This document shows, in pieces, positions 1,468-62,532 of a stretch of 64,000 nt of DNA. Source of the DNA: Bacteroidetes bacterium MED-G20 (lineage in GTDB: Bacteria; Bacteroidota; Bacteroidia; Flavobacteriales_D; Parvicellaceae); contig CAJJCR010000010.1 of NCBI GenBank assembly GCA_905182745.1, positions 31,724 through 95,723 of the forward strand, in the 5' to 3' direction. The notes beneath the pieces were generated by a model, which was given only the letters and a program-made list of their open reading frames with translations, was not told the origin of the DNA and ran no database searches. The stretch's first letter is position 1. Each line of letters opens with the position of its first letter. The position numbers and the translations under genes are program-made.

Positions 1468-4400
1468 ATGCTTAGAAAAATATTTTTATTATCCGTATCT
1501 CTTTTTAGTTTATGCTTTGTTAGTTATGCTCAGCCTCAAGGAGGAAGTGTAAAAGGTAAGGTTTTTGATGAATTGAAAGATGGTTTTCCATTTGTTAATG
1601 TCGCACTTTTTCAAAATGGAAATATAAGGGGAGGTGCAACTACTGATTTCGATGGTGTTTTTAAGATTAGTAATATTTCTGCTGGATCCTATACTCTTGA
1701 AATTAAATTTGTAGGATATCAAACTTACAGACTTGAAGGTTTGATTGTTAAGGGTGGAAAATTATTGCCATTATCCCCAATATATTTAAAAGAAGCAACA
1801 GAGCTTTTAAAGGAAGTGGAAATTGTTAGTTATAAAGTTCCTTTAATTGATAAAGACGGAGGTGCTTCTGGTGGAACTGTTACAAGAGAGGATTTAGCTA
1901 GAATGCCAGGAAGGTCTGCTGGTTCTATTGCAAGTACTGTTGGTGGTGTACAATCGGATGCTAATGGTAACATTACATCTGTAAGAGGTTCTAGAGATGA
2001 TGCAACTTTTTATTATATTGATGGAATTAAAGTTAGAGGTTCTACTAATTTACCTAAATCTGCTATTGAAGAAGTAAGTGTAATGACAGGTGGGGTTCCT
2101 GCAAATTTTGGAGATGCAACAGGTGGTATAATATCTATTACTACAAGAGGAGCTTCAAGAACTTATTTTGGAGGAATTGAAGTAGTAAGTTCTGGTTTGC
2201 TTTAAATGAAAATGTTTATGGATTAGACAATAATGGATTCAATCTTTTAGAAGGTACTTTTTCAGGTCCATTACTTATGAAAAAAGACAGTACTGGAAAG
2301 AAAACAGATCCTATTCTTAGGATTCTTTGTTTCTGGAAACTTTAACCATGTCTTAGACCCAAGACCTCTTGCTGGTGATCAATATAGACTTAAGCCAGCA
2401 TACAAAGATTCGCTAATAGATCCTTCTAAAATGGGGCCATTAAGACCAACTGGTTTGGGCTTTGGTGCCTATTACAATACAGATTTTTTGACCGATGATG
2501 CTTTCGAAAAAGTTAAGTATCGTCAAAATGTAGATAGAACTACTGCTTCTCTCGCCGGTAAAATAGATGTTAATGCTGGTCCAAATATGAATATCTCATT
2601 TGGAGCTTCTGGTTCTTATTCAGATCGTAATGGAGCTTCTTGGGAAAGTTCGCTTATGAATTACTGATAATTTAGCCAATTATAGAGATTTTGACTGGAG
2701 AGCTTATGGAAAATTTACCCAACGTTTTCAAAATGTAGCTGAAGATGCTAACTCTCAAACTGGGGTTAAAAATGCTTACTATACTATAATGGTGGATTAT
2801 TCAAGAAACTATGGTTGGGTAGAAGACAATGTCCATGGAGATAATTATTTTAATTATGGTCATATTGGAAATTTGATATTGCTAAAACACCTTCTTATGA
2901 GTTTTCAGACTTTGATGGAAATGGAGTTTTAGATCTTGTTCAAACTGGTGTTAATGACGATTCCATTGTTTTCACCCCCTCTAGCTACTAATGCAGATAT
3001 GGCTGCAATAACAACTCAGTACTTTTCTCTTTACGACGATGTTGCTGGAAATTACGAAAATATAACTCAACTATTAGACGGAGGTGCTCTTTTGAATGGA
3101 AGAAGACCAACCAATGTTTATGGACTTTGGCAAAATATTGGATATGGATATAATGGATCCAACCAATCAGATAATTCTCAGTTTAGGATAACTGCTGTTG
3201 GTTCTGCAGATATTGGAGACCATGCTCTTTCTTTGGGTTTTGAATACGAGCAAAGAACAGATAGATATTTTGGAGTAGCACCTATAGGGCTCTGGGGTTG
3301 ATGAGGCAGCTTGCTAACTCTCATACGGATTATGGTAGAGGAATTGACGAAAGCCAACCTATATATAACAACTTTGGTTCGTTTACTCAAATAAGCTTTG
3401 AAACTTTAAATACAGCACCAGGAGCTTATTCTGGTTCAGATCCTCAATCATTTTTTGATTACAATTTAAGAAATAGCCTAGGTTTAGATCCAAATGGCAC
3501 TGACTTTATCAATATTGATGCAATGGATCCTTCTGAGTTTAGTTTAGATATGTTCAGTGCAGATGAATTATTAAACTCTGGAAATAACTACGTAACCTAC
3601 TACGGCTACGATCATAAGGTGATAAAATTTCTGGAAGGCCTAGTTTTGATGATTTCTTTAACAAAAAAGATCAATATGGTAATTACACTAGACCAATTGG
3701 TGCATTTGAACCAATTTACATTGCGGGTTATATTATGGACAAGTTCGCTTTTGATGATTTAATATTTAATGTTGGAGTCAGAGTAGATAGATTTGATGCA
3801 AATCAACAAATTTTAAAAGACGATTTTTCTTTATACCCTACAAGAACTGTTGGAGAGGTTAGTGATATTAATGGACAGTCCGTAACCCATCCTACAAATA
3901 TTCCTTCAACTGCTACAGTTTATATAAATGATATTGAAGACCCAACAACTTTAATGGGTTATAGAGAAGGGAATCAATGGTATACTTCTAATGGTGTAGC
4001 TGTAAACGATTTAGAGTCTATTACGCCAAGTGGTTATGTTGTTCCTCAGCCATACTTATCCCAAGGAGTTTCTACGGACGACGATGTTAGTTCTAATGCA
4101 TTTGAAGATTACAAACCTCAAATTAACATTATGCCTAGAATTGCATTTTCTTTTCCTATTTCAGATGAAGCTCTGTTTTTTGCTCATTACGATGTTTTAA
4201 CAAAAAGACCAACTACAGGTAATAGATTAAATCCAATAGATTATTTTTATTTACAAACTGGAAATATTGGAACTGTAAATAATCCTAGTCTTCTTCCTGA
4301 AAAAACAATCGATTATGAAATTGGATTTCAGCAAGTTCTTAATATTAGGTCTTCCTTAAAAATATCGGGTTTTTACAGAGAGCAAAGAAACCAAGTGGCT

Positions 4401-5186
4401 TTAGTTAACAAAATTGGTGCTTATCCTCAAACTTACTCTACGTGGGGAAATATAGATTTTGGAACTATTAAAGGTTTAACAGTTGCTTATGATTTAAGAA
4501 GAACTGGTAATATGTCAATGAGAGCATCTTATACATTACAGTTTGCTGATGGAACAGGGTCTAATCCATACGCTGCACAAAATTTGATTGCTTCTGATCA
4601 ACCAAACTTAAGAACAATTTACCCATATACGTATGACCAAAGACACCAAATTATTACAGCTATTGATTATAGATATGGTTCTGGTTCTAGTTACGATGGT
4701 CCTAGAATTGCAGGAAAAGAAATTTTTAAAAATACTGGACTAAACTTAGTAGCAAATTTTGCTTCTGGAATGCCATACTCCAGACAACAAAGAATAACAG
4801 GTGCTGCTTTAATTTCTAATCCTGTTCCTATTTTAGAGGGAGAACCCTTAGGATCTAGAAAGCCTTGGAATTTTAGAGGAGATCTTCAAATTGATAGAAA
4901 TATTAGTTTAGAGTTTGGCAATGGAGAATCTAAAAAGAAAACAGCTAATCTTAATGTATACCTGTTAATGACCAATGTGTTTAATACTTTAAATATTACC
5001 AATGTTTACCGAGCTACTGGAAATGCTGGAGATGATGGCTATTTAAATGCTGCAAGATTCCAAACATCTATTAGTACTCAAAATAACGAAGAAGTTTTTA
5101 GATATTATTACGCTATGAAGGCCAATAATCCATATAATTTTGGAATACCTAGACAAATAAGGTTGGGTGTAAAATTAGATTTTTAA
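1468..5186 (+). CDS. TonB-dependent outer-membrane receptor with carboxypeptidase-like N-terminal domain (frameshifted)
   Basis: A ~1240-residue receptor split over ORFs 1468-2205, 2431-2667, 2936-3301, 3298-3762 and 3735-5186, plus short linking frames. In order: signal peptide (MLRKIFLLSVSLFSLCFVSYAQ), a CarboxypepD_reg-like beta-sandwich (residues ~28-105, GKVFDELKDGFPFVNVALF), a TonB plug (SVRGSRDDATFYYIDGIKV, then FGDATGGIISITTRG), and a long barrel ending in IPRQIRLGVKLDF with a terminal Phe as in outer-membrane barrels. It would sit in the outer membrane and import or bind a ligand using TonB energy. The linking frames are also coding: DNLANYRDFDWRAYGKFTQR lies between ORFs near 2670-2730. 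Breaks fall near 2200, 2325, 2662, 2870, 2980, 3298, 3640 and 3740. It leads the surface module; the substrate is unknown. Confidence 0.88.
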
Positions 5187-5206: not shown

Positions 5207-8200
5207 ATGAGACAATATTTAATATTATTATTTATTAGCACATTATTAATTGCTAATCCTACTTATGCATGGAACGATCCTGCTAATTCTGGAAAAAAAT
5301 CCAACAAAAATAATTCTTTGGTATCAAGAGCTGCTAATTGTACCCCTGCTACCGGAAAGAAATTTCTTGAATTTAACAATGTATCTGCCTTAATAGAAAC
5401 GGGTGGTTCTATGTGGCAAGACAGGTCTAGAAGTGATGCAGCATACGAAGTCCCTAAAGGTTCTGGAGAGACTGTTATATATGCTGGTGCTTTATGGATG
5501 GGTGGAACAGATCCTAATAATCAATTAAGAATTGCAGCATTAACTTTTAGAAATGGAAACGATTTTTGGGCAGGGCCTCTTTCAGTAGATGGAGGTGGTT
5601 CTTTTGATATAACTCAAGGAACTTTAGACTGGGGATTTGCAGATATTTCACCAGAAGTTTGTATGGAGTACGACAACTTTTACATTACTGAAAGACAAAA
5701 TATAGAGCTTTTTAATGCTTGGTACGAATGTTCTTCTGACCCAAATTGTGACGCTGGTCTTGAATATCCTGATTACCAAGTACCATCTAGCATTTTAGAA
5801 TGGCCTGGTAATTTTAATAACGACTTAGACTTAAACCAATCTTATGATTTTAATTTAGCTCCTTTTTATGATAGAAATAGTGATGGTATTTATAATCCTG
5901 TAGATGGTGATTATCCATGGTATGATTTATCTGGACAGATAGATTGTAGAACTAGTAGAAGAGTAACCTTGTACGGAGATTTTAATATGTGGTGGGTTTT
6001 TAACGACAAAGGAAATATTCATACAGAAACTGGTGCGGATCCTATAGGAATGGAAATTAAAGGCTCAAGCATTTGCTTTTGCTACCAACGATGAAGTTAA
6101 CTCTATGACTTTTTATAATTACGAACTTATAAATAGAAGTTACTATACCTTAAACAATACTTATTTTGCTATTTGGGTAGATTCTGATATTGGTTGTTCT
6201 GAAGATGATTACGTTGGTTGTGATGTTCAAAGAGGTTTGAGCTACCAATACAATGCTGATGCAAATGATGATGGATGTCAATATGCTATTCCAGGTTATA
6301 CTCCTGCTATTGGAGTTGACTTTTTTGAAGGTCCTTATCAAGATAATGACGGAGTTGATAATCCGTTGACATCTGATGTTTCCTCTGCTAAAAATCTTGG
6401 TGGCATTCCTTATCAAGGACTAGGTATAGGTTATGGAGATGGTGTCATTGACAATGAAAGATTTGGTATGAAAAGGTTTGTTTATTTTGATAGAACACTT
6501 AATTCTACAATTTATGGGGATCCAAACACAGGGGTTGATTTTTATAATTATATGCTTGGTTTTTGGAAAGATAATACACCATTTGTTTATGGAGGAACTG
6601 GAAATGCTTCTGATGCAAATGCAACTTCATTAGTTACCAATTACTGTTTCCCTGGAGATAGTGATCCATTAAATTGGGGTACAGTTTCTGCCGGTGGCGG
6701 ATCTACTGTTCCTTTTGATTACTGGTCTGAACAATATCCTACAGGTACTGGTAGCACACCAAATCCGCAGGGAGATAGAAGGTTCGTCCAGGCAGCAGGC
6801 CCATTTGTTTTAGAGCCAGGTGCTTTAAATAATATTACAACAGGAGTAGTTTATGCAAGAGCACAATCTCCTGATCCTTTTCAATCAGTTGAGTTAGTTC
6901 GTAAGGCAGATGACAAGGCCCAGGCTTTGTTTGATAATTGTTTTAGGATTTTGAATGGTCCAGATTCTCCGGAGATGTCTATTCAGGAGTTGGATAAGGA
7001 GTTGATACTGTATTTGAATAAGACAGATAAAGTAGAGTCTTATGAGGAAGTGGATCCAAATATTCTTATTTATGTTACAGATGTAGAAGAAGCAAAATAC
7101 CGTTTTCAAGGTTATCAGGTATACCAAGTTAAAGACGGATCAGTAGATCCATCTCTTTTAGGGGATCCAAATCAGGCTAGGTTGATTGCCCAGTGTGATG
7201 TTAAGGATGGAGTTGGTCAGTTGGTTAATTTTAATTTTGATGAAGATTTATTAGCGGCAGTACCGACTTCTATGGTAAATGGATCTGACGATGGCATACT
7301 GCATTCTTTTCAGGTATTGAATGATGCCTTTGCCCAGGGAGATGTTAGGTTAATCAATCATAAGAAATATTATTTCATGGTTCTTTCCTATGGTTATAAT
7401 AATTACCAGCCTTATGATCCTTCTAATAGTGCTTTAGGTGGTCAGCAGTTGCCCTATAAGGCAGGAAGAAAGACGGTTAGTGGAGGATCGATTACTTCTT
7501 ATGTTGGTATTCCTCATATACCTAGTTCTGAGGCTGGCGGAACGATACAGTTGGCAGCATATGGAAGTGGTCCACAGATTACAAGGGTAGAGGGTAGAGG
7601 CAATGGCTATAATTTGGTAGAGTTAACGCCTGAGAGTGAAGCTGATATAGTATCTAATATTTATCCAAAACGAGTTACTTATAAGAACGGGAAAGGTCCT
7701 GTTGCGGTTAAGATAATAGATCCTTTGAATGTACAAAAAGGAGATTATCAGCTTTGGGTAAATCCTCAGGACACAGTAGATTTAGATGAATCGTACTGGA
7801 TGTTGGTAAGGAATTATGAAGATCAGAGCGATACTATTATATCTATTCAGAGTATAACTGTGGGTAATGAGCAGTTAATACCTCAGTGGGGTTTATCGGT
7901 AAATATTGAGTATTACAATCCTTACGATGCATCGATAGGTAAGAATTTTCCAGAGTTGTTATTTTCTAGTGTAGAGTTTGCAGATTCTTCGAAGCAGTGG
8001 ATTGCCGGTGTCCCAGATCAGGATGGATCTTCGCCAAGAAACTGGATACGTTCGGGAACATCTGAGGAGAGTCAAGATTATGCTGCCTATTCTAGCAAGT
8101 GTGATGATCCTTATATATACAATGATTTTATAGGAGTTGACGATGCAGAAGTGTATGAGAAGGTGATTGAAGGCGTGTGGGCACCATATAGGTTGGTTGC

Positions 8201-9561
8201 AGCCGGTGATTGTAACCACCAGCCAGTAACTGCAGGTGGTGACTGGGCAGATAATGCATATGAGACACCACAAGTTGCACCAGATGACAATGCTCAAATG
8301 ACATTGGCTACAACAAGGGATCAATCAGATTTAAAGTATTTACCGTCTATAGATGTAGTAATTACAGCAGATAAGAGTAAGTGGACTAGGTGTCCTGTGT
8401 TGGAGACACAGGATAATCCTTCTCTGTCTTGGGATCAGTCTGGACAAGTAAATCAGTCTATGGGTAATAAGTATGGTAATGGTACGTCTGTAGCAAGGGT
8501 GTATAAGCAATATCCAAAGTGGAAGCCTTCGGTAGATAAGGAAGGTAATCCATCGACAAGTCCTGGAAGTGTTAGTAATCCTACGGTATCGAATGATCCA
8601 AATGATCCAAATTATATTTGTGGATATGGTATGGGCTGGTTTCCTGGGTATGCAATAGATGTAACCACTGGTGAGAGGTTGAATATAGCTTTTGGAGAAG
8701 ACAGTTGGTTGGGTAACCATGGCGGGAATGATATGATGTTTAATCCATCTGCTTCGGAGCAATTAGGATTTGGAGGGTTTGGGAGATTATGTTGGAGGAG
8801 GAAAGCATTTTATATATGTTTTCAGGAACTCAGCAAAGTACAGTGCAACGGATGATCCTGGTAGTATGGTTGGATATGACCATGGTGCTTTTTTCATGGA
8901 GAAGTTTCAGAAGTCAAGTTTCAGGCCAGATATGTTAAAGATATGGAAGTCATGTGCTTGGGTAGGATATCCTATACTGAATGGAGATTATAATACGCAG
9001 TATTTGGAGGTAGCACCAACAGATCCGAGTTCGTTTATAGCGACAGATGTGCGGGTAAAATTAAGAGTGGCGAGTCAGTACCAGTATATGAATACTAAGG
9101 ATGGTAATGGAGATGGGATAAGAGATAATGGTACGTCTAATCCTTCCAATACTAGTGGTTCAGAAAACAGTTGGAATCCACTGTATGAGTTTAGTACGGA
9201 TGATATTGCGGTGACAACCAATAGTGATTCAGCAGCGTTAGAGGCATGTGAAATATTAAATGTGGTGCCTAATCCATATTATGCATATTCCAATTATGAG
9301 TTTGACAAGTTGGATAATGTAGTAAAGATTGTGAACTTACCAGACGTTTGTACGGTGAAGATATACACAGTAAGCGGAACGTTGGTAAGATCTTATAGTA
9401 AGGATAGTCCGGTGACGTCTATAGATTGGGATTTAAAGAATTTTGCAGGTATACCAATAGCAAGTGGAGTTTATTTGATACATATCAATATTCCGGGAGT
9501 ATGTGAAAAGGTATTGAAATGGTTTGGGGTGATAAGACCTCCAGATTTGGATCAATTTTAA
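5207..9561 (+). CDS. Large exported T9SS-type surface protein, copy A
   Basis: About 1450 residues in ORFs 5207-6094, 6105-8855 and 8770-9561. A signal peptide (MRQYLILLFISTLLIANPTYA) precedes a mature region starting WNDP, then a SRAANCTPATG element. Asp-rich, calcium-site-like stretches follow (DRNSDGIYNPVDGDYPW, DNDGVDNP, GDGVIDNERFG). The C-terminal ~100 residues (VVPNPYYAYSNYEFDKLDN ... VKIYTVSGTLVRSYS ... GIPIASGVYLIHI) resemble the FlgD-like/T9SS type A C-terminal sorting fold, so cell-surface delivery is inferred. Compared with copy B it has one extra G near 6062 (aaaggctc against aagctc) and one near 8781 (tttgggag against tttggag); these two alone explain both frame breaks. From position 6900 the DNA is nearly identical to copy B. 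Function unknown. Confidence 0.84.
6900..9553 (+). repeat. Long direct repeat, copy 1 (3' part of surface protein A)
   Basis: From the shared CGTAAGGCAGATGA to CCAGATTTGGAT, this ~2.65 kb segment aligns with 12312-14963 at an offset of 5412, dropping to 5411 after the extra G near 8781. By eye it is nearly identical, with scattered mostly silent changes and a divergent island at about 7060-7175. Codon choice inside differs from the 5' part of the same gene: TTG, AGG, CAG and AAG are frequent here, where TTA, AGA, CAA and AAA dominate upstream. The repeats are in the same orientation, separated by ~2.76 kb, so they could recombine to delete or amplify the intervening PorV-like gene. Confidence 0.9.
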
Positions 9562-9579
9562 TTAAATTATTAATAGATT

Positions 9580-10636
9580 ATGATTTACAATAAAATAAAT
9601 TTTTTTTTACTACTGTTTTTGTCCTTTAATATTGCTTTTGCTGGTAATGAAGACAGAGCTGGTTCTGCTGGTGCTACAGAGATGTTAGTTAACCCATGGG
9701 CAAGAAGTTCAGCATGGGGTTCTGCAGGTGTTTCATCTGTCAATGGATTAGAAGCCATGTTTCTAAATGTTGCAGGTTTGGCGTATGCAGATAAAACTGA
9801 AATTCAATTTTCAAGAACAAACTGGCTAGGCTCAATTACTGGTATTGGACTAAATGCTGCAGGTTTAGCTCAAAGAGTTGGTGAATCTGGTGTAATTGGT
9901 CTTTCTTTTACTAGTATGAATTATGGAGATTTACAAATTACAACTACAGAACTTCCAGAAGGTGGAATAGGTACATTCAACCCATCTTCTACGAACTTCA
10001 ATTTAGCTTATGCAAAGAAATTTTCACAATCTATAAGTGGAGGGTTGAATTTAAAAATAGTTTCACAATCTATAGCAAATGCCAGAGCCCAAGGAGTTGC
10101 TATTGATGCTGGCATAAGATATGTTACAGGTGATCAAGAGCATATTAAATTTTCTATTAGTCTAAAAAATGTTGGTCCTCCAATGTCTTTTTCTGGAGAT
10201 GGTTTATCTTTAGATATGCTAAACCCATCAACTAGTATTTCTATAGGTATGCAACAAAGAGTAGCTAGTTACGAGCTTCCATCTCAACTAAATATAGGCG
10301 CTTCTTATGATTTTAATTTTAACGAAAATCAAATATTGACAGTTGCTGGTTCTTTCTCTGCAAACTCATTTTCAAAAGATCAATTTAGAGGAGGTGTAGA
10401 ATATACTCTAAAAACAGAAAAAGCATCTTTCACATTAAGAGGGGGGTTTGTATATGAAGAATCTCTGTTTAATTCTGTACAAGTCTCAACAGCTCTTTCT
10501 GGTCCCAAGCGGCGGGTTTTCCTTTAACTTTCCGTTTGGTGAAAGTGGTTCTGATATTGGAATAGATTATGCTTACAGGCAATCTATTTTGGGTGGAGTT
10601 CACAGTGTTGGTGCAAGAATAAACATTAGTGAATAA
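9580..10636 (+). CDS. PorV/PorQ-family outer-membrane protein (one frameshift)
   Basis: Signal peptide (MIYNKINFFLLLFLSFNIAFA) followed by the family's N-terminal pattern: GSAGATEMLVNPWARSSAWG, then GLEAMFLNVAGLAYADKTE. The rest is Gly/Asn-rich amphipathic beta strands, as in FadL-like 14-strand barrels. PorV is the T9SS shuttle that carries cargo at the outer membrane and PorQ is a relative. ORF 9580-10527 breaks at ggtcccaagc (~10503); removing one C restores SGPSGGFSFNFPFGESG and runs into ORF 10448-10636, giving 352 residues. The stop overlaps the GTG start of copy B, and the gene lies 18 bases after copy A, so it is inferred to serve these two proteins. Confidence 0.86.
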
Positions 10637-13600
10637 TTCTAAAGCATCATTTTTAATATTACTTATTTTATCCTGTCTTAATTCTTTTGCTTGGCAAGAT
10701 CCATCTGTAGCTATTACCATCTAATTCTTCATCTTCTTTGCTCTCAAGAGCAGCTAATTGCACACCTGCCAGTGGAAGAAAATTTCTTGAATACAATAAC
10801 GTCTCTGCCTTAATTGAAACTGGTGGTTCTATGTGGCTGGATCGTTCTAGAGGGAAAAACGCTTATGAGGTCCCAAAAGGTTCTGGCAATACGTTGGTTT
10901 ATATTGGTGCTTTATGGATGGGTGGAATGGACGTTAATAATCAACTAAAAATTGCAGCTTTAAGATATAGAATAGGAAATGATTTCTGGGCAGGGCCTCT
11001 TTCTACAAACCCAGGTACTGCCGATATTACAAATGGTAAATTAGACTACGGTCCAGCAGAAATTGATGCTGACGATTGTTCTAAATGGGATCAGTTTTTT
11101 ATAACAAAAAGAAGTGAAATAGAGCTTTTTAATGCTTGGTACGAATGTTCTTCTGATCCAAATTGTGATGCTAATTTTGAATACCCAAATTACCAAATAC
11201 CAGAAAGTATATTAGAATGGGGTAATGCTACCCATGGAAATTTAGCAAAAAATCAAGACTTTTATTTAGCTCCTTACTACGAAAGACCTGAAGGCAATAT
11301 TGGTTATGACCCTATAAACGATGGTGATTATCCATGGTATGATTTATCTGGACAGATAGATTGTAGAACAAGTAGAAGAGTAACTTATATGGAGATTTTA
11401 ATATGTGGTGGATTTTTAACGATAAAGGGAATATTCATACAGAAACTGGTGGAGACCCCATAGGGATGGAGATTAGAGCTCAAGCATTTGCTTTTGCTAC
11501 CAACGATGAAGTTAACTCTATGACATTTTATAATTACGAACTTATTAATAGATCAACCCAAACACTTACTAATACGTATTTTGGTGTTTATTTAGATTCT
11601 GACATAGGCTGTTCATTTGATGATTACGTTGGGTGTGATGTGCAGAGAGGCTTAGGCTATTGTTACAACGGTAATTCTGTTGATGCTATTGGTTGTGGTT
11701 CTTGGACAACTCCTATTGGTCCAAATCCACCTGCTATTGGAGTTGATTTTTTTGAAGGTCCTTATCAAGACAACGACGGAGTTGATAATCCATTGACCCC
11801 TAATATTTCACTTGCATTAAGTCAGGGTGGTATACCTTACAAGGGTTTAGGAGTAGGTTATGGAGATGGTGTTATTGACAATGAAAGATTTGGTATGAGA
11901 AGATTTGTTTATTACGATGGACAACTTCCTCAGAATTCGTTTGGTGATCCTCAAACAGCAATTCAATACTATAACTATATGAGAGGTTTGTGGAGAGATG
12001 GAACCAGATTTGTTTATGGTGCTTCAGGAAATATTTCTAGCACAGGTTCTTTAGTCAATGTATCAACTGACTACTGTTTTCCTGGAGATAGTGATCCTCT
12101 ACATTGGGGAACAGCTGGAGTTGTAACAAACTTTGAGTGGAGTGAGCAATTTCCTGCTCCTGGTATTTCTGCCAACGTTGTTGGTGACAGAAGGTTTGTT
12201 CAGTCAGCTGGTCCGTTTGTTTTAGAGCCAGGCGCTTTAAATAATATCACTTTTGGAGTAGTTTATGGTAGAGCTTTTGATGGGGATCCATTTAGTTCTG
12301 TTTTAGAAGTCCGTAAGGCAGATGATAAGGCCCAGGCTTTGTTTGATAATTGTTTTAGGATTTTGAATGGTCCAGATTCTCCGGAGATGTCTATCCAGGA
12401 GTTGGACAAGGAGTTGATACTGTATTTGAATAAGACAGATAAAGTAGAGTCTTATGAAGAAGTGGATCCTATTATTCTTTCTTACGGTTTTTCTGAAGAA
12501 GAAGCAAAATACCGTTTTCAAGGTTACCAAGTATACCAAGTTAAAGATATAAGTGTTGGTCCATCAGAACTTACAGATCCAAATCAGGCGAGGTTGATAG
12601 CCCAGTGTGATGTTAAGGATGGAGTTGGTCAGTTGGTTAATTTTAATTTTGATGAAGATTTATTAGCGGCAGTACCGACTTCTATGGTAAATGGATCTGA
12701 CGATGGCATACTGCATTCTTTTCAGGTATTGAATGATGCCTTTGCCCAGGGAGATGTTAGGTTAATAAATCATAAGAAATATTATTTCATGGTTCTTTCC
12801 TATGGTTATAATAATTACCAGCCTTATGATCCTTCCAATAGTGCTTTAGGTGGTCAGCAGTTGCCCTATAAGGCAGGAAGAAAGACGGTTAGTGGAGGAG
12901 CGATTACGTCTTATGTTGGTATTCCTCATATACCTACTTCGGAGGCTGGCGGAACGATACAATTGGCAGCATATGGAAGTGGTCCACAGATTACAAGGGT
13001 AGAGGGTAGAGGCAATGGCTATAATTTGGTAGAGTTAACGCCTGAGAGTGAATCAGATATAGTATCTAATGTTTATCCAAAACGAGTTACTTATAAGAAC
13101 GGGAAAGGTCCTGTTTCGGTTAAGATAATAGACCCGTTGAATGTACAAAAAGGAGATTATCAGCTTTGGGTAAATCCTCAGGACACAGTAGATTTAGATG
13201 AATCGTACTGGATGTTGGTAAGGAATTATGAAGATCAGAGCGATACTATTATATCTATTCAGAGTATAACTGTTGGTAATGAGCAGTTAATACCTCAGTG
13301 GGGTTTATCAGTAAATATTGAGTACTACAATCCTTACGATGCATCGATAGGTAAGAATTTTCCAGAGTTGTTATTTTCTAGTGTAGAGTTTGCAGATTCT
13401 TCTAAGCAGTGGATTACCGGTGTGCCAGATCAGGATGGATCTTCGCCAAGAAACTGGATACGTTCGGGAACATCTGAGGAGAGTCAAGATTATGCTGCCT
13501 ATTCTAGTAAGTGTGATGATCCTTATATATACAATGATTTTATAGGAGTTGACGATGCAGAGGTGTATGAGAAGGTGATTGAAGGCGTGTGGGCACCATA

Positions 13601-14972
13601 TAGGTTGGTTGCAGCCGGTGATTGTAACCACCAGCCAGTAACTGCAGGTGGTGACTGGGCAGATAATGCATATGAGACACCACAAGTTGCACCGGATGAC
13701 AATGCTCAAATGACATTGGCAACCACAAGGGATCAATCAGATTTAAAGTATTTACCGTCTATAGATGTAGTAATTACGGCAGATAAGAGCAAGTGGACAA
13801 GATGTCCTGTTTTAGAGACTCAGGACAATCCTTCTCTGTCTTGGGACCAGTCTGGACAAGTAAATCAGTCTATGGGTAACAAGTATGGTAATGGTACGTC
13901 TGTAGCAAGGGTATATAAGCAATATCCAAAGTGGAAGCCTTCGGTAGATAAGGAAGGTAATCCATCGACAAGTCCTGGAAGTGTTAGTAATCCTACGGTA
14001 TCGAATGATCCAAATGATCCAAATTATATTTGTGGATATGGTATGGGCTGGTTTCCTGGGTATGCAATAGATGTAACCACTGGTGAGAGGTTGAATATAG
14101 CTTTTGGAGAAGACAGTTGGTTGGGTAACCATGGCGGGAATGATATGATGTTTAACCCATCTGCTTCGGAGCAATTAGGATTTGGAGGGTTTGGAGATTA
14201 TGTTGGAGGAGGAAAGCATTTTATATATGTTTTCAGGAACTCAGCAAAGTACAGTGCAACGGATGATCCTGGTAGTATGGTTGGATATGACCATGGTGCT
14301 TTTTTCATGGACAAGTTTCAGAAGTCAAGTTTCAGGCCAGATATGTTAAAGATATGGAAGTCATGTGCTTGGGTAGGATATCCTATACTGAATGGAGATT
14401 ATAATACGCAGTATTTGGAGGTAGCACCAACAGATCCGAGTTCGTTTATAGCGACAGATGTGCGGGTAAAATTAAGAGTGGCGAGTCAGTACCAGTATAT
14501 GAATACTAAGGATGGTAATGGAGATGGGATAAGAGATAATGGTACGTCTAATCCTTCCAATACTAGTGGTTCAGAAAACAGTTGGAATCCACTGTATGAG
14601 TTTAGTACGGATGATATTGCGGTGACAACCAATAGTGATTCAGCAGCGTTAGAGGCGTGTGATATATTAAATGTGGTGCCTAATCCATATTATGCATATT
14701 CTAATTATGAGTTTGACAAGTTGGACAATGTGGTAAAGATTGTGAATTTGCCGGATGTATGTACCGTGAAGATATATACGGTTAGCGGTACTTTGGTTAG
14801 GTCATATAGTAAGGATAGCCCGGTGACGTCTATAGATTGGGATTTAAAGAATTTTGCAGGTATACCAATAGCAAGTGGAGTTTATTTGATACATATCAAT
14901 GTCCCTGGAGTATGTGAAAAGGTATTGAAATGGTTTGGGGTGATAAGACCTCCAGATTTGGATAGTTTCTAG
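10629..14972 (+). CDS. Large exported T9SS-type surface protein, copy B
   Basis: Paralogue of copy A, ~1447 residues. The ORF track starts it at 10738, but an upstream GTG at 10629 gives a signal peptide (MNNSKASFLILLILSCLNSFA) and a WQDP mature start matching copy A; a one-base shift near 10723 joins it to SNSSSSLLSRAANC. A second shift near 11386 (agtaacttatatgg against agtaaccttgtacgg in copy A) separates ORFs 10738-11463 and 11403-14972; the two shifts cancel in length. The N-terminal ~560 residues are clearly related to but diverged from copy A; from 12312 on they are almost the same. It ends with the same T9SS-like C-terminal domain and the tail VIRPPDLDSF. It starts within the PorV-like gene's end, so translation is probably coupled. 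Confidence 0.84.
12312..14963 (+). repeat. Long direct repeat, copy 2 (3' part of surface protein B)
   Basis: Partner of 6900-9553. It begins at the same codon (CGTAAGGCAGATGA) where the divergent, A-ending-codon 5' part stops, and ends a few bases before the stop codon, where the copies differ (GATAGTTTCTAG against GATCAATTTTAA). The divergent island corresponds to about 12472-12587. The copy lacks the extra G of copy 1, so its reading frame is intact. Confidence 0.9.
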
Positions 14973-15044: not shown

Positions 15045-15518
15045 ATGTCAGAAATTAGTTATTACACAGAAGAAGGTTTAAGTAATTTAAAGAAAGAAAT
15101 TAAAAATTTGGAGTCCGTAGAAAGACCTAAAATTTCTCAACAAATAGCAGAAGCTAGAGACAAAGGAGATCTTTCTGAAAATGCCGAATACGATGCTGCT
15201 AAAGAAGCTCAAGGTATGCTTGAAGCTAGAATCTCAAAACTAAAAAATAAATTTGCTAACGCAAGATTAATTGATGATAGCGAAATTGACGATAGTAAGG
15301 TATTTATACTTTCAACAGTAAAAATAAAGAATATTAAGAATTCCATGCAAATGTCTTACACTTTAGTTGCTGAAAATGAAGCAGACATAAGAGCTGGTAA
15401 AATTTCCGTTGATTCTCCTATTGGAAAAGGCTTATTGGGAAAGGAAGTAGGTCAAATTGCAGATATTAGTACACCAGCAGGAATTATGGAATTTGAAATA
15501 GTTTCCATCCAGCGTTGA
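15045..15518 (+). CDS. greA: Transcription elongation factor GreA
   Basis: GreA rescues backtracked RNA polymerase by stimulating cleavage of the 3' RNA end. The 157 residues starting MSEISYYTEEGLSNLKKEIK match the family's usual ~158. The N-terminal coiled coil carries the acidic tip (GDLSENAEYDAAKEAQ) that reaches the polymerase active site, and the C-terminal FKBP-like domain contains SPIGKGLLGKEVGQIADI. The ORF track start at 14988 is too early; it adds a non-family leader that crosses the hairpin, so I use the ATG at 15045. The stop overlaps the HIT gene's ATG (TGATG), indicating coupling. Confidence 0.95.
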   Translation: MSEISYYTEEGLSNLKKEIKNLESVERPKISQQIAEARDKGDLSENAEYDAAKEAQGMLEARISKLKNKFANARLIDDSEIDDSKVFILSTVKIKNIKNSMQMSYTLVAENEADIRAGKISVDSPIGKGLLGKEVGQIADISTPAGIMEFEIVSIQR

Positions 15519-53885: not shown

Positions 53886-54191
53886 ATGAGTCAAAAAATA
53901 AGAATAAAATTAAAATCATACGACCACAACTTAGTAGATAAATCAGCTGAGAAAATTGTTAAGACAGTTAAGACAACTGGTGCTATTGTAAGTGGACCAA
54001 TTCCACTTCCAACTCACAAAAGAATTTACACAGTTTTGAGATCTCCTCACGTAAATAAAAAATCGAGAGAGCAATTTCAGCTTTGTGCTTACAAAAGATT
54101 AATGGATATCTATAGTTCTTCTTCTAAAACTATAGATGCACTAATGAAATTAGAGCTTCCCAGTGGAGTGGATGTAGAAATTAAAGTATAA
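53886..54191 (+). CDS. rpsJ: 30S ribosomal protein S10
   Basis: 101 residues. [39 protein letters not shown] and the C-terminal SGVDVEIKV are diagnostic. It is the first gene of the S10 block but sits 11 bases after fusA, so the str and S10 operons are continuous. S10 (NusE) also acts in transcription antitermination. Confidence 0.98.
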
Positions 54192-54205
54192 ATATAAATA
54201 TCAAG

Positions 54206-54820
54206 ATGGCTGGTATCATAGGAAAAAAAATAGGGATGACTAGCGTTTATAGTGCCGAGGGTAAAAATTTACCATGCACAATTATTGAGGCAGGACCATG
54301 TGTCGTTACTCAAATAAAAACGCAAGAAAAGGATGGATACGAATCTGTTCAATTAGGTTTTGAAGACAAAAAGGAGAAAAATACTCCCAAGTCTATGCTA
54401 GGTCACTTTAGTAAAGCAAAAACCACTCCCAAAAGAAAAATTGTTGAGTTTAAAGGTTTAAACGAAGTAAATCTTGGCGATTCTGTTACTGTAGATCAAT
54501 TTCAGGAAGGTGAATTTGTAGATGTTGTAGGAACTTCTAAAGGAAAAGGTTTTCAAGGAGTTGTCAAAAGACACAATTTTGGTGGTGTTGGACAAGCAAC
54601 TCATGGCCAGCACAACAGGATGAGAGCTCCTGGTTCTATTGGTGCTGCTTCATATCCTGCGAGAGTTTTTAAGGGCATGAAAATGGGTGGAAGAATGGGA
54701 GGAGATAGAGTGAAATCTATAAATCTTGAAGTTCTAAAGATAGTTCCAGAAAAGAATTTATTAATTGTAAAAGGATCAGTTCCCGGTTCTAAAGGATCTT
54801 ATTTAATAGTTGAGAAATAA
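54206..54820 (+). CDS. rplC: 50S ribosomal protein L3
   Basis: 204 residues. [19 protein letters not shown] at the N-terminus and [16 protein letters not shown], then [16 protein letters not shown], the loop reaching the peptidyl transferase region. It shares its last base with the rplD start (TAATGG). Confidence 0.98.
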
Positions 54821-55449
54821 TGGAGATTAAAGTTTTAAATAAAGAAGGTAAAGCGACTTCTAAAAAAGTTTCATTAACCAAAGAAATATTTGCAATAGAG
54901 CCTAATGATCATGCAATTTATTTGGATGTTAAGCAATATCTTGCAAACCAAAGACAAGGTACTCATCAATCTAGAGAGAGAGCAGATATTGCAGGAAGTA
55001 CAAGAAAAATTAAAAAGCAAAAAGGTACGGGTACGGCTAGAGCAGGTTCCATTAAGAACCCTTTATTTAGGGGTGGTGGTCGTGTTTTTGGTCCAAGACC
55101 AAAGTCATACAGCTTCAAACTAAATAAAAAATTAAAAGTTCTTGCAAGAAAGTCAGCGCTTACTTACAAAGCTAAAGAAGATAGCATACTTGTTTTGGAC
55201 GATTTATCTTTTAAGACACCTAAAACAAAAGATTTTCTTTCTGTTCTTAAAAATTTGAAAATAGATGGCGATAAATCTCTTTTTGTTACCAGTGAGAAAG
55301 ATCAAAATACTTTCTTGTCATCCAGAAATTTAAATAATGCTAAAGTTATAACTGCTGATAAACTTAATACGTACGATATTCTTTATTCGCACAAGTTGAT
55401 AATTTCAGAAAATGCTTTTGATCAAATTGAAAAACTATTTAAGGTATAA
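54820..55449 (+). CDS. rplD: 50S ribosomal protein L4
   Basis: 209 residues. The exit-tunnel loop RKIKKQKGTGTARAGSIKNP and GGGRVFGPRPKSYSFKLNKK are conserved. One-base overlap with rplC; L4 can regulate the S10 operon in some bacteria, but no leader element is visible here. Confidence 0.98.
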   Translation: MEIKVLNKEGKATSKKVSLTKEIFAIEPNDHAIYLDVKQYLANQRQGTHQSRERADIAGSTRKIKKQKGTGTARAGSIKNPLFRGGGRVFGPRPKSYSFKLNKKLKVLARKSALTYKAKEDSILVLDDLSFKTPKTKDFLSVLKNLKIDGDKSLFVTSEKDQNTFLSSRNLNNAKVITADKLNTYDILYSHKLIISENAFDQIEKLFKV

Positions 55450-55451
55450 TT

Positions 55452-55748
55452 ATGGAAAATATTATTATAAAACCCATATTAACAGAAAAAATGGCAGATT
55501 TAGGTGAGAAACTTAATCGTTATGGTTTCGAAGTTAAAACTGATGCCAATAAAATACAGATTAAAAAAGCTGTAGAGAGTGCTTATGGTGTGAGTGTTAA
55601 AGCGGTAAATACTATGAAGCAAGGTGGTGGTAAAAGAAAAATGAAATATACAAACCAAGGCGTTTCTTTTCAGAGAACAAGATTGTTTAAAAAAGCTATT
55701 GTTACTCTTCACGAAGGAGACACTATTGATTTATATGAAAATATTTAA
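55452..55748 (+). CDS. rplW: 50S ribosomal protein L23
   Basis: 98 residues. IIIKPILTEKMADLGEKLNR, then FEVKTDANKIQIKKAVES, the fold that docks trigger factor and SRP at the tunnel exit. Two bases after rplD. Confidence 0.97.
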   Translation: MENIIIKPILTEKMADLGEKLNRYGFEVKTDANKIQIKKAVESAYGVSVKAVNTMKQGGGKRKMKYTNQGVSFQRTRLFKKAIVTLHEGDTIDLYENI

Positions 55749-55767
55749 AGACTAGAAAAGAACTAAA

Positions 55768-56592
55768 ATGAGCTTGAAAAAATTTAAACCGACTTCACCA
55801 GGGCAAAGACATAAAGTTGTAAGTGATTACAGTGAAGTAACTGCTAGTAAGCCCGAAAAGGCATTAACTAAAGGTTCTAGTAAAAGTGGTGGTAGAAATA
55901 ACTCCGGTAAAATGACCATGAGATATATTGGAGGTGGCCACAAAAGAAGGTATAGAATTGTCGATTTTAAAAGAAATAAATACGATATACCTGCAAAAGT
56001 TCATTCTATAGAGTACGATCCAAATCGTTCTGCAAGAATTGCATTGTTGTTTTATGCTGACGGAGAGAAAAGATATATTCTAGCTCCTGATGGGCTAAAG
56101 GTTGGTCAAACTGTTTTGTCAGGTTCAAAAGCATCACCAGAATTAGGTAATGCTATGTTTCTAAAAGATATTCCATTAGGTACTATTATTCACAACATTG
56201 AAATGACTCCGGGTAGAGGTGGGGCTATTGCTAGAAGTGCTGGATCTTTTGCTCAGTTAAATGCTAGAGATGGAAAATATGCAATTATTAAATTACCATC
56301 TGGAGAAATTAGAATGGTTTTAATTACGTGCATTGCCACCATTGGTTCTGTATCAAATTCTGAAAACAGTCTTCAAGTTTCTGGTAAAGCCGGAAGAAAA
56401 AGATGGTTGGGAAGACGTCCTAGAGTTAGGGGTGTTGTAATGAATCCTGTTGATCATCCAATGGGTGGTGGAGAAGGAAAATCATCTGGAGGTCATCCAA
56501 GATCAAGAAAGGGTCTTCCAGCTAAAGGGTACAAAACAAGAAGTAAAACTAAATCTTCTAATAGATTTATCATTGATAGAAAAAAGAAATAA
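55768..56592 (+). CDS. rplB: 50S ribosomal protein L2
   Basis: 274 residues, full length. [36 protein letters not shown] and the peptidyl-transferase-proximal [20 protein letters not shown] with the conserved His. No breaks. Confidence 0.98.
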
Positions 56593-56595
56593 ATA

Positions 56596-56862
56596 ATGTC
56601 TAGATCATTAAAAAAACCGCCATTTGTTCATTATAAATTAATGAAAAGAGTTGAAGAAGCTAAAGAGTCTTCTAAAAAAACTGTTATCAAAACATGGTCG
56701 AGAGCATCAACAATTACTCCAGACTTTGTAAATCTAACTATTGCAGTTTACAACGGAATGAAATTTATCCCAGTATTTGTAACAGAAAATATGGTTGGTC
56801 ACAAGTTAGGAGAATTTGCTCCAACAAGAAACTTTAGAGGTCACGGAGGGAAGAGAAAATAA
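56596..56862 (+). CDS. rpsS: 30S ribosomal protein S19
   Basis: 88 residues. [40 protein letters not shown] and [20 protein letters not shown]. Three bases after rplB. Confidence 0.98.
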
Positions 56863-56884
56863 TTAAAGTTTTAAAAACTTAGAT

Positions 56885-57277
56885 ATGGGTGCAAGAAAAA
56901 GAAATAGTTCAGAAAAAATAAAAGATTCGAGAAAAACTCAAGCTTTGGCCAAGCTAAACAGTTGTCCTACATCTCCTAGAAAAATGAGATTAGTTGCTGA
57001 TTTAGTTCGTGGTGAAGATGTTTATAAGGCTTTAAATATTCTAAAATTTAGCCCAAAGCATGCTTCTAGAAATTTAGAAAAGCTTCTTTTGTCGGCGATT
57101 AATAACTGGGAGCAAAAGAACGATGGTGAAGATGCCACATCTGCAAATTTGGTAGTTAAAAGCATCAATGTAGATAGTGCGAGGATGTTAAAAAGAATTC
57201 AAGCTGCTCCTCAGGGAAGAGCTCATAGGATTAGAAAAAGATCTAATCATGTTACATTAATAATTGATAAAGCTTAA
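56885..57277 (+). CDS. rplV: 50S ribosomal protein L22
   Basis: 130 residues. [20 protein letters not shown] and the tunnel hairpin [20 protein letters not shown]-like segment ([20 protein letters not shown]). Short N-terminal extension rich in Lys/Ser ([19 protein letters not shown]), common in Bacteroidota. Confidence 0.97.
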
Positions 57278-57286
57278 ACATAAAGC

Positions 57287-57979
57287 ATGGGACAAAAAAC
57301 AAACCCTATAGGTAATAGATTAGGTTTCATTAAAGGTTGGGATTCCAATTGGTATGGAGGAAAAGATTATTCTGCTAAGTTGGTAGAAGATGAGAAAATT
57401 AGAAAATACTTAAATGTAAGATTACAAAAAGCAAGTATCTCTAAAATTATCATTGAGCGAACTTTAAAGTTAATTACTATAACTATTAATACTGCGAGGC
57501 CGGGAGTAATCATAGGTAAAGCAGGATCAGAAGTAGATAAGCTTAAAGAAGAGTTGAAAAAACTTACTGCCAAAGAGGTACAGATTAATATTTTTGAAAT
57601 AAAAAGACCGGAACTAGATGCAAAATTAGTTGGAGACAGTATAGCTAGACAAATTGAAGCAAGAATTTCTTTTAGGAGAGCAATTAAAATGTCTATTGCT
57701 TCCACCATGAGAATGGGTGCAGAAGGTATAAAAGTTAAAATTTCTGGGAGGTTAAATGGTGCAGAAATGGCAAGGAGTGAAATGTATAAAGATGGAAGAA
57801 TTCCTCTTCATACACTTCGTGCAGATGTTGACTATTCTCTTTCAGAAGCATTAACAACCTATGGGTTAATTGGAATAAAGGTTTGGATTTGTAATGGTGA
57901 AGTTTACGGAAAAAGAGATTTATCTCCCAACTTTGGAATGAGCAGTAGAAAATCAAACAACGATAAAAGAAAAAGATAA
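57287..57979 (+). CDS. rpsC: 30S ribosomal protein S3
   Basis: 230 residues. [21 protein letters not shown] domain with [17 protein letters not shown], and the C-terminal [20 protein letters not shown]. The Lys/Arg tail ([12 protein letters not shown]) is short. Confidence 0.98.
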
Positions 57980-57989
57980 TTAGAATATT

Positions 57990-58409
57990 ATGTTACAACC
58001 TAAGAAGACCAAACATAGAAAGCAACAAAAAGGTAAAATCAAGGGCAATGCTCAAAGAGGACACCAAATTGCTTTTGGATCCTTTGGGATAAAATCTTTA
58101 GACGAAGGTTTTCTCACATCTAGACAAATTGAAGCTGCTCGTATTGCTGTAACAAGGCATATGAAAAGAGAAGGTCAGGTTTGGATAAGAATATTTCCAG
58201 ACAAGCCTATCACCAACAAACCTGCCGAAGTAAGAATGGGTAAAGGTAAAGGAGCTTTAGATCATTGGGTAGCTGTCATAAGACCTGGAAGAGTTTTGTT
58301 TGAAACGGATGGAGTTTCTTATGAAGTTGCCAAAGAAGCTTTAAGACTAGCTTCTCAAAAGCTGCCGTTAAAAACAAAGTTTGTTGTAAGAAATGATTAC
58401 GAAATTTAA
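57990..58409 (+). CDS. rplP: 50S ribosomal protein L16
   Basis: 139 residues. [40 protein letters not shown] and [20 protein letters not shown]. Ten bases after rpsC. Confidence 0.98.
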
Positions 58410-58420
58410 AAGTATTTAAG

Positions 58421-58636
58421 GTGAAAAGTAAAGAATTTAATATAAAATTAAATGGTTTATCTAACGAAGAGCTTAATGAAATGCTAACCAACACACAGGG
58501 TGAGTTAAATAAGCTAAAGATGAATCATAAAACAGCAGAACTAGAAAATCCTCTTGAGATAAGATTTGTAAGAAGAAATGTATCTAGAATAAATACAGAA
58601 ATCAAAAAAAGAGAATTACAACAAAGTACCAACTAA
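58421..58636 (+). CDS. rpmC: 50S ribosomal protein L29
   Basis: 71 residues of two helices: [20 protein letters not shown] and [20 protein letters not shown]. The start codon is GTG (58421); this and the TTG/GTG starts elsewhere in the window fit an organism that does not depend on Shine-Dalgarno pairing. Confidence 0.95.
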
Positions 58637-58641
58637 TTGAT

Positions 58642-58893
58642 ATGAGAAATTTAAGAAAAGAAAGAGTAGGTTTAGTAACGAGTTCAAAAATGGATAAGTC
58701 TATTGTTGTCATGGTTGAACGTAGAGAAAAACATCCTAAGTATGGAAAGTTTCTCAAAAAAAGTTCCTCATTTGTAGCTCACGATGAGAAAAATGAGTGT
58801 AATGAAGGTGATACTGTTAAAATAATGGAAACCAGACCATTAAGTAAGAGAAAGAATTGGAGATTAATAGAAATACTTGAAAAAGCTAAATAA
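58642..58893 (+). CDS. rpsQ: 30S ribosomal protein S17
   Basis: 83 residues, OB fold: [40 protein letters not shown] and [20 protein letters not shown]. Five bases after rpmC. Confidence 0.98.
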
Positions 58894-58899
58894 CTAAAA

Positions 58900-59268
58900 A
58901 TGGTACAACAAGAAAGTAGATTATTGGTTGCTGATAACAGTGGAGCTAAAGAGGTGTTGGTTATTAGAGTCCTTGGTGGAACAAAAAGAAGATATGCTTC
59001 AATTGGAGATCAAGTTGTGATTACTGTTAAGGATGCCACACCTGCAGGAAATGTGAAAAAAGGACAAGTCTCTAGAGCAGTAGTTGTTAGAACAAAAAAA
59101 GAAGTTAGAAGAAACGATGGGTCTTACATTAGATTTGACAACAATGCAGTTGTTTTATTGAGTGATACTGGGGAAATGAGAGGAACAAGAATTTTTGGCC
59201 CAGTAGCAAGAGAATTAAGAGAAAAACAATTTATGAAAATAGTGTCTTTGGCACCAGAAGTACTGTAA
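58900..59268 (+). CDS. rplN: 50S ribosomal protein L14
   Basis: 122 residues: [39 protein letters not shown] and [20 protein letters not shown]. Standard length for the family. Confidence 0.98.
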
Positions 59269-59278
59269 TAAAATAGTA

Positions 59279-59605
59279 ATGCAAAAGAAATTTAAAATTA
59301 AAAAAGGGGATACAGTTAAGGTAATTGCTGGCGCTGCCCTTGGACAACAGGGAGTTATCCTTGATGTAGATTACGTAAAACAAAGAGTTTTTATTCAAGG
59401 TCTTACAGTAGTAAATAAAAAACACGTAAAGCCTCAAACAGATAAAGCTAACCCTGATGGAGGAATTCTTGAAAAGGATAGAAGTATACATATTTCGAAC
59501 GTAATGTTTGTCCATAACGGAGAAACTACAAAGATTGGTAGAAAAATGGATGAAAATAATAAACTCGTTAGGTTTGCAAGAAAAACAGGGGAGGAAATAG
59601 TATGA
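59279..59605 (+). CDS. rplX: 50S ribosomal protein L24
   Basis: 108 residues with a KOW motif: [20 protein letters not shown] then [18 protein letters not shown]. First gene in the spc part whose stop overlaps the next start (rplE, 4 bases). Confidence 0.97.
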
Positions 59606-60150
59606 GTTACACGCCAAGATTGAAGGATAAATACACGAATGAGATAGTTCCTGTAATGAAAGAGAAGTTTCAATATAAGTCTTTAATGGAAGTTCCTAAA
59701 GTAGAAAAGATTGTTATTAGCCAAGGTGTTGGTGAAGCAGTTTCAGATAGAAAATTAATCGAAAATGCGGTTAATGATCTTACGGAAATTGCTGGACAAA
59801 AGGCGCTTATTGTTAATTCTAAAAAGGATGTTTCTAATTTTAAATTAAGAAAAGGAATGCCCATTGGGACTAAAGTTACTCTTAGAAAAGATAAGATGTA
59901 TGAGTTTTTAGATAGACTTATTTCTGTTGCCTTACCTAGAACAAGAGATTTTAGAGGTGTAAAGTCCAATGGAGATGGTAGAGGAAACTTTACTATTGGA
60001 GTAAAGGAGAGTATTATTTTTCCAGAAATAGATATTGATAAAGTTAAAAAGATATTAGGAATGGATATCACTATTGTTACATCAGCAAGAACTACTGAAG
60101 AAGGTAAAGCATTGTTGGTAGAGTTTGGATTTCCATTTGAAAAAAAATAA
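59602..60150 (+). CDS. rplE: 50S ribosomal protein L5
   Basis: 182 residues: [56 protein letters not shown] and a C-terminal GFPFEKK. Contacts 5S rRNA and the P-site tRNA. Confidence 0.98.
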
Positions 60151-60162
60151 AGAATAAAAGAT

Positions 60163-60450
60163 ATGGCTAAAGAATCAATGAAAGCTAAAGAGCGAAAAAG
60201 AGAAAAACTTGCCGCTCAGTACAGTGAAAGAAGAAAAGTTTTAAGAAAAGCTCAAAGTGAAGGCGATTGGGAAGCAATGTTTAAACTTCAGAAACTTCCA
60301 AAAAATTCAATGGGTGTTAGAAAACATAATAGATGTCAATTAACTGGGAGACCAAGAGGTTATATGAGACAGTTTGGGATTTCTAGAGTTACTTTTAGAG
60401 AAATGGCAGTAGCTGGCAAAATACCAGGTATAACAAAAGCAAGCTGGTAA
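60163..60450 (+). CDS. rpsN: 30S ribosomal protein S14
   Basis: 95 residues in the ORF track; the family start is probably [20 protein letters not shown] as given. Contains [20 protein letters not shown] and [18 protein letters not shown]. This is the long zinc-independent form: the CxxC pairs of the short form are absent. Confidence 0.97.
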
Positions 60451-60471
60451 ATAATAATTAAAAAAGAGAAA

Positions 60472-60870
60472 ATGGTAACAGATGCTATATCAGATTATTT
60501 AACAAGATTAAGAAACGCCATAAGTGCTAAGCATAAAGTGGTAGAAATTCCTGGATCTAATGTTAAGAAGGCAATTACTCAGATTCTAATGGATCAGGGA
60601 TATATCTTAAATTTTAAAGAAATTAAGGATGAAAAGCAAGGAATTATTAAAATTGCTTTGAAATATAATAACAAAACTAAAGATTCTGCTATTATGAATT
60701 TAACTAGAATTAGTAAACCAGGTTTAAGAAAGTATACTGGGGTTGATTCTATGCCAAGAGTTTTGAACGGATTGGGTATTGCAATTATATCTACATCTAA
60801 GGGTTTAATTACAGATAAAGAAGCGAGAAAACATAATGTAGGGGGAGAAATCCTTTGTTACATTGACTAA
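60472..60870 (+). CDS. rpsH: 30S ribosomal protein S8
   Basis: 132 residues: [40 protein letters not shown], and [20 protein letters not shown], then ILCYID. S8 often represses spc translation in other bacteria; no operator is evident here. Confidence 0.98.
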
Positions 60871-60880
60871 ATTTTAAGAA

Positions 60881-61435
60881 ATGTCAAGAATAGGAAATGC
60901 GCCAATTACAGTACCTGAGGGAGTCGAGATAAATATTTCAGCTGAAAATCAAGTTAGTGTTAAGGGTAAATTAGGAGAGCTTACACAGGATGTTAATCCT
61001 TTGATAAAAATTGTTTTGGAAGATAAAACAATTACTCTCTCACGACCAAATGATGAAAAAGATACAAGATCAATTCACGGATTATATCGGTCATTAATAT
61101 TTAATATGATATTTGGAGTGTCAGAAGGTTATGTGATTGAGCAAGAATTAGTAGGAGTTGGATATAGAGCCAAAGCACAAGGACAAAATTTAGAATTGTC
61201 ATTAGGATATTCACATCCAATAATCTTTCAACTTCCCCAGGAGGTTAAGTTGACTGCAATTACTGAAAAAGGAAAAAATCCACTCATTAAATTGGAATCA
61301 TTTGATAAACAACTAATTGGTCAAGTAGCAGCTAAAATAAGATCTTTCAGAAAACCAGAACCTTATAAAGGAAAAGGCGTATTATTCAAAGGTGAAGTGA
61401 TTAGAAGAAAAGCAGGTAAAACGGCAGCAAAATAA
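60881..61435 (+). CDS. rplF: 50S ribosomal protein L6
   Basis: 184 residues: MSRIGNAPITVPEGVEINIS, GVGYRAKAQGQNLELSLGYS and FRKPEPYKGKGVLFKGEVIR. Two repeated domains of the family are both complete. Confidence 0.98.
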   Translation: MSRIGNAPITVPEGVEINISAENQVSVKGKLGELTQDVNPLIKIVLEDKTITLSRPNDEKDTRSIHGLYRSLIFNMIFGVSEGYVIEQELVGVGYRAKAQGQNLELSLGYSHPIIFQLPQEVKLTAITEKGKNPLIKLESFDKQLIGQVAAKIRSFRKPEPYKGKGVLFKGEVIRRKAGKTAAK

Positions 61436-61446
61436 TTTATTAAGAA

Positions 61447-61800
61447 ATGAGTAATTTAAAATCAAATAGAAGAGCAAGGATTAAAAAAAGAATCCGTAAG
61501 AATATTTCTGGTACATCTACTAGACCTAGATTAAGTGTTTTTAGAAGTAATAAGCAAATATATGCTCAAGTTATTGATGATGTAAAGGGAGTTACAATAA
61601 CTTCAGCTTCATCTCATGTTAAGGACAGTACTCAAAAAGTAAATAAAACCGATCAAGCAAAATCAATTGGTAAAGAGATTGCTGAAAATGCTACAAAAGC
61701 AGGTATCAAAGAAGTGGTTTTTGATAGAAACGGTTATTTATATCATGGTAGAGTAAAAGCATTGGCTGAGTCTGCTAGAGAAAACGGATTAAAATTTTAA
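61447..61800 (+). CDS. rplR: 50S ribosomal protein L18
   Basis: 117 residues: [40 protein letters not shown] and [20 protein letters not shown]. Binds 5S rRNA. Confidence 0.98.
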
Positions 61801-61809
61801 AAAAGAAGT

Positions 61810-62325: not shown

Positions 62326-62336
62326 GAAAGTTCATA

Positions 62337-62513: not shown

Positions 62514-62532
62514 TTTAAATAACTAAGTAATT

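Follow-up and report, generated by a model that had tools for sequence, protein, structure and literature searches.

Several described systems resemble parts of the locus reported here. In the H. pylori pairs homA/homB and babA/babB, the 5′ segment follows the gene and the 3′ segment follows the strain, and gene conversion has been invoked (PMC2795765). Long-lasting concerted evolution in prokaryotes has been described for 26 genes as full-length cases, with partial ones left as future work (PMC6053082). Through GC-biased gene conversion, recombining bacterial DNA gains synonymous G+C, a gain for which optimal codons are no explanation (PMC4450053). T9SS cargo served by a PorV-type shuttle includes PorZ and PorU, and shuttle–cargo pairs are described from F. 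johnsoniae (PMC12618676).

We analysed a stretch of 64,000 nucleotides (the window) from a marine bacterium whose assembly (G000) has 18 contigs, 1.25 Mb and 69% completeness; its nearest named relatives are marine Flavobacteriales MAGs. The gene order is TonB-dependent-receptor-like gene (TBDR), surface-protein gene copy A, PorV-family gene, copy B and GreA (Table 1). The homogenised part, or tail, makes up the last two-thirds of each surface gene, and the front parts, or heads, differ. Comparisons among related sequences make it likely that this arrangement reflects segmental concerted evolution by gene conversion after an old duplication, with a shift toward G-ending codons as a probable by-product.

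Results

Layout of the locus and the boundary between head and tail

Table 1. Coordinates of features at the surface-protein locus, in window positions.
Feature	Position	Strand	Basis
TonB-dependent-receptor-like gene (CarboxypepD_reg + Plug), indel-split in the assembly	1468..5186	+	Pfam; 73-93% identity with intact G001 gene
Copy A head, A-type, unhomogenised, background codons, indel near 6062	5207..6899	+	groups with other species' A heads
Homogenised tail of copy A (the cassette); G-ending codons; indel near 8781	6900..9561	+	groups with same-genome copy B
Unhomogenised island in copy A tail, background codons	7050..7163	+	identity and codon usage
GIPHIP codons, copy A; homogenisation start in other families' pairs	7506..7523	+	G001A residues 773-779
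PorV/PorQ-family gene between the copies, indel near 10506	9580..10636	+	Pfam PF19572; intact G001 orthologue passes NF033709
Copy B head, B-type, unhomogenised; indels near 10710 and 11384	10629..12311	+	groups with other species' B heads
Copy B homogenised tail (cassette), G-ending codons	12312..14972	+	identity, codon usage, trees
Unhomogenised island in copy B tail	12462..12575	+	identity and codon usage
GreA, conserved flank on the right of the locus	15045..15518	+	Pfam; neighbour kept in relatives

The start codon of copy B (about 10629), which overlaps the PorV stop, was assigned by eye. Single-base indels were found in copy A, copy B, the PorV-like gene and the TBDR gene of this assembly. 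Because the orthologues in G001, a genome of the same genus in six contigs, lack them, these indels are probably sequencing errors. Across 1468–5186 and 5207–11463 the genes are broken by many of these indels, and the assembly looks unpolished. The ends of G000 contigs C9 and C16 (L051 and L057) share near-identical stretches and are probably redundant contig ends.

The sequence CGTAAGGCAGATGA was found at both 6900 (copy A) and 12312 (copy B). At this codon, identity between the copies rose from about 70–75% to about 97%, a sharp jump that bears out the boundary given in the preliminary description. Calculated per 60 columns, identity was about 45–90% up to 6899/12311 and mostly 95–100% thereafter, and the DNA match over the whole cassette was 96%. 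The cassette is a mosaic: a 114-base island within it is diverged and carries background codons, and synonymous A/B differences cluster near 8366–8435 and 9291–9408. At its level of completeness, G000 contained no additional silent or expressed copy that carries a different head. This genome carried two tail copies only, and the earlier claim that the cassette had spread across a gene family in the genome was thus not upheld.

Heads follow the gene lineage and tails follow the genome

The same tandem pair was present in G001, intact and with the same boundary codon. Within G001, the A and B tails were 98–100% identical; between species, tails were about 80% identical, and heads were also about 80% identical, each head matching its counterpart of the same type (A–A, B–B). 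In trees from families f1, f9 and f8, heads clustered by gene lineage and tails by genome. Tail dS between copies was 0.01 in G001 and 0.13 in G000, compared with 1.19–1.25 between species. These low values indicate that synonymous sites were homogenised too, which mere protein conservation would not explain. The trees and dS values, which cover several genera, thus argue for the homogenisation by gene conversion that had been proposed from the window. Head dS between A and B (0.86–1.05) was lower than the between-species value for heads (1.2 and more), suggesting that some conversion also occurred in the heads, with amino-acid differences preserved by selection.

In eight more genomes of the genus (G003 to G010), contigs ended inside the cassette, as expected for a near-identical repeat. 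Frameshifts split the heads of both surface-gene copies in G016 (L024). The many indels in the window's assembly might raise the suspicion that the second tail was created by the assembler or by polishing, and a misassembled second copy had been named beforehand as a possible refutation. However, the intact G001 pair, the breaks of fragmented assemblies at the repeat, and a pair in G225 whose copies are separated by 2.66 Mb within a single contig of 3.5 Mb all speak against an artefact, which we regard as scarcely credible.

Most of the family has a single copy, in the order TBDR, surface gene, PorV and GreA. The second copy lies between PorV and GreA in the window's genus (g1), g7 and g6, and the sister genus g9 has one A-type copy at the locus. 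Both the tail tree and the TBDR tree placed g9 as sister of g1, and the tail tree matched the species order.

We also considered whether each genome had independently undergone one recent tail duplication or domain swap, as a single replacement and not as repeated conversion. In any one genome the two processes would look alike, and the tails of G001 and G242 are indeed almost identical. Nevertheless, the state recurs in every checkable genome of the genus and in several families, and the differences between the two G000 tails fall in patches of unequal age. Replacement repeated in this way would be conversion under another name, and we judge one-off events to be quite improbable.

Homogenised tails are enriched in G-ending codons

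Among two-fold purine codons, 17–27% were G-ending in the heads compared with 70% in the cassette, in both copies, a shift seen for each of Leu, Arg, Gln, Lys and Glu. C did not rise: the C-ending fraction at two-fold pyrimidine sites was 0.13–0.15 in the tail and 0.22–0.24 in the head. For copy A, the likelihood change point fell at 6891 (2-LL support 6864–6915, LLR 37), in agreement with the earlier observation that the codon-usage boundary coincides with the identity boundary. For copy B, read from 11403 onward, it was at 12135 (12111–12333). In copy A of G001, the change-point model placed the codon step at 9518, compared with an identity boundary at 9527. In copy B of G016, the step lay near that pair's own, later homogenisation start and away from the cassette start.

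We then compared codon usage among relatives, taking backgrounds from sampled genome stretches. In single-copy relatives, tail codon usage equalled that of the neighbours, and neither g9 nor other unhomogenised relatives had a codon step. The G-ending fraction rose in the tail by a mean of +0.115 in seven homogenised lineages (p=0.0002, lineages not fully independent) against 35 controls, namely nine other pairs (−0.002; including the weakly homogenised G175) and 26 genomes without a known pair (0.008). The change in C-ending codons across lineages was not significant (p=0.09), and these codons were flat or lower in the g1 and g7 tails. As the step is absent without homogenisation and the G rise accompanies it, the codon step goes with conversion rather than with an imported module. 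Since C did not rise in the window's genus, ordinary GC-biased conversion falls short as a full explanation.

The switch of codon usage and identity at the same codon would also fit a foreign cassette, that is, a tail that reached one gene from a donor with G-ending codons and from there the other; the preliminary description had likewise considered an acquired cassette. Against this, g9 is sister of g1 in the tail tree as in the TBDR tree, the unhomogenised island within the tail keeps native codons, and other lineages have gained G within their own homogenised tails. Given the match of the tail tree to the species order, the missing step in unhomogenised relatives and the way the step tracks homogenisation, the idea of acquisition was abandoned; we consider a foreign origin very improbable.

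The association between homogenisation and G-ending codons has exceptions. The tail of G040 was homogenised without a rise of the G-ending fraction. All open reading frames with z>6 in the sampled stretches carried repeats; in G000 and G001, however, numerous near-identical repeats elsewhere had background codons, and a rule that every repeat gains G was therefore rejected. Two repeat-bearing genes can be mentioned here. A surface-protein gene on the minus strand of G000 contig C14 (L055:15414–18878) contains near-identical repeats of ~86 residues, and its codons too are often G-ending (0.42) and seldom C-ending (0.11). A gene for a surface-type protein on the minus strand of G001 contig C3 (L081:12644–18880) contains large near-identical repeats and shows the same codon shift, with a G-ending fraction of 0.38 and a C-ending fraction of 0.12.

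Other bacteria have G-rich recombination signals, Chi among them, and the shift is strand-specific, so the step could in principle derive from such a motif, or from translational selection, instead of from a bias of conversion. However, no G-rich motif was enriched once codon usage was accounted for, which led us to reject a Chi-like motif. Codon optimisation for expression was rejected as well, because ribosomal protein genes sit at background; moreover, head and tail belong to one gene with one expression level. The run of ribosomal protein genes at 53886–63003 of the window (L2 at 55768–56592) served as a codon-usage reference. Taken together, a translational or motif-based origin of the step appears rather unlikely. 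Adenine mutagenesis as in diversity-generating retroelements was also rejected, as four-fold sites showed no fall of A. Polarising A/B differences with outgroups gave an apparent excess of T>C, which we distrust because third positions are near saturation.

Homogenised tails recur in other families of the order

The unnamed surface-protein family was present in 202 of the 215 genomes of the order, and is thus nearly universal there. Paralog pairs with a homogenised tail were also found in other families: in tandem in G240, 39 kb apart on opposite strands in G242, in the distant G225 copies described above, and in G040 and G202. Per 50 residues, the pairs of these five genomes were about 40–85% identical in the head and 85–100% identical in the tail. 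The f9 and f8 pairs each comprised two head lineages, with tails clustering by genome. Pairs in G226, G054, G215, G022, G037, G108 and G012 had no such homogenised block.

Change-point fits placed the start of homogenisation, in G001A residues, at 774 (G240), 745 (G242), 779 (G225), 773 (G040) and 774 (G202), and at 775 in the weaker G175 pair. Apart from 745, all of these starts (five of six) fell at the motif GIPHIP, in a span of no more than seven residues. In g1 the start is residue 569, and GIPHIP lies about 205 residues into the window's cassette. We tentatively suggest that sustained conversion in these bacteria favours G on the coding strand specifically, a bias that can be read from codons, and that the tail starting at GIPHIP is a module which families have independently kept identical. 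If so, codon usage would reveal long-term conversion tracts, and the module would be one held identical between diverged, even unlinked, paralogs in several families.

Head conservation and predicted protein properties

Between species, head dN was 0.088 for A and 0.048 for B, compared with 0.11 for the tail. The heads are under strong purifying selection (dN 0.05–0.09), and A and B represent two conserved orthologous types. The proposal of an exchangeable-head surface antigen with a diversifying head therefore fails, since the heads are not diversifying and their dN is below that of the tail.

The surface protein, of about 1,400 aa, matched no Pfam family, and a sequence search found no solved relative. 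Its C-terminus matched the T9SS sorting domain TIGR04183 weakly (20.2 bits, cut-off 23) and weakly resembled PorZ and PorU. The predicted tail structure (mean pLDDT 82) matched PorZ (5m11) with E 2e-5 over about 116 columns, and the head model (pLDDT 84.5) had no more than weak structural matches, to carbohydrate-enzyme sandwich domains (TM 0.2–0.3). Sequence and models suggest a protein that is exported by the T9SS and partners both a PorV-family barrel and a TonB-type receptor. The T9SS anchoring suggested earlier is consistent with the T9SS-like C-terminus and the PorV-family gene in the operon. That roughly 680 C-terminal residues are kept identical in paralogs hints at a docking part common to both; in the most plausible picture, two specialised heads would sit on a tail that has to fit one shared export and docking partner.

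Discussion

Concerted evolution of the tail would have begun from the single-copy block of TBDR, surface protein, PorV-like gene and GreA, the probable ancestral state in the family. A second copy of the surface gene then probably arose by duplication between PorV and GreA, in the lineage that includes the window's genus. Conversion between the copies would have overwritten the tails repeatedly, while the heads diverged and were then conserved as two types. Selection might keep the heads different and purge conversions that cross into them, and both tails may have to suit the same export and docking partners, namely one PorV-like barrel and perhaps the TBDR. The G-ending shift would be a slow by-product of sustained conversion, arising from a bias in the base that is kept. 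The locus offers a natural gene-conversion experiment in bacteria: a converted part is set against an unconverted part of one gene, single-copy relatives provide the controls, and neither expression nor position confounds the measurement of conversion bias.

The likeness to homA/homB and babA/babB lies in outer-membrane paralogs with concerted evolution of the tail only. Those pairs concern one species and have a polymorphic middle segment, whereas the pattern here crosses genera and is seen in several families, with conserved heads and a shifted codon usage in the tail. As in the long-lasting cases of concerted evolution, paralogs from one genome have long stayed closer to each other than to their counterparts in other species, but here the tail alone is concerted and not the full length. 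In agreement with GC-biased conversion, homogenised tails are richer in G-ending codons than controls, and not via optimal codons; that process, however, predicts G and C alike, while C does not rise in g1 and g7 and the effect lies inside one gene. With its PorZ/PorU-like C-terminal domain, as judged from sequence and model, and a PorV/PorQ-family gene in the operon, the protein resembles T9SS cargo, but it differs in belonging to an unnamed family that has a length of about 1,400 aa and matches nothing in Pfam, and in its sorting-domain score under the cut-off. As far as the open-licence literature was searched, two features are new: the repeated occurrence, in several families and unlinked copies included, of homogenisation from almost the same start, and the coupling of the G-ending shift to homogenisation.
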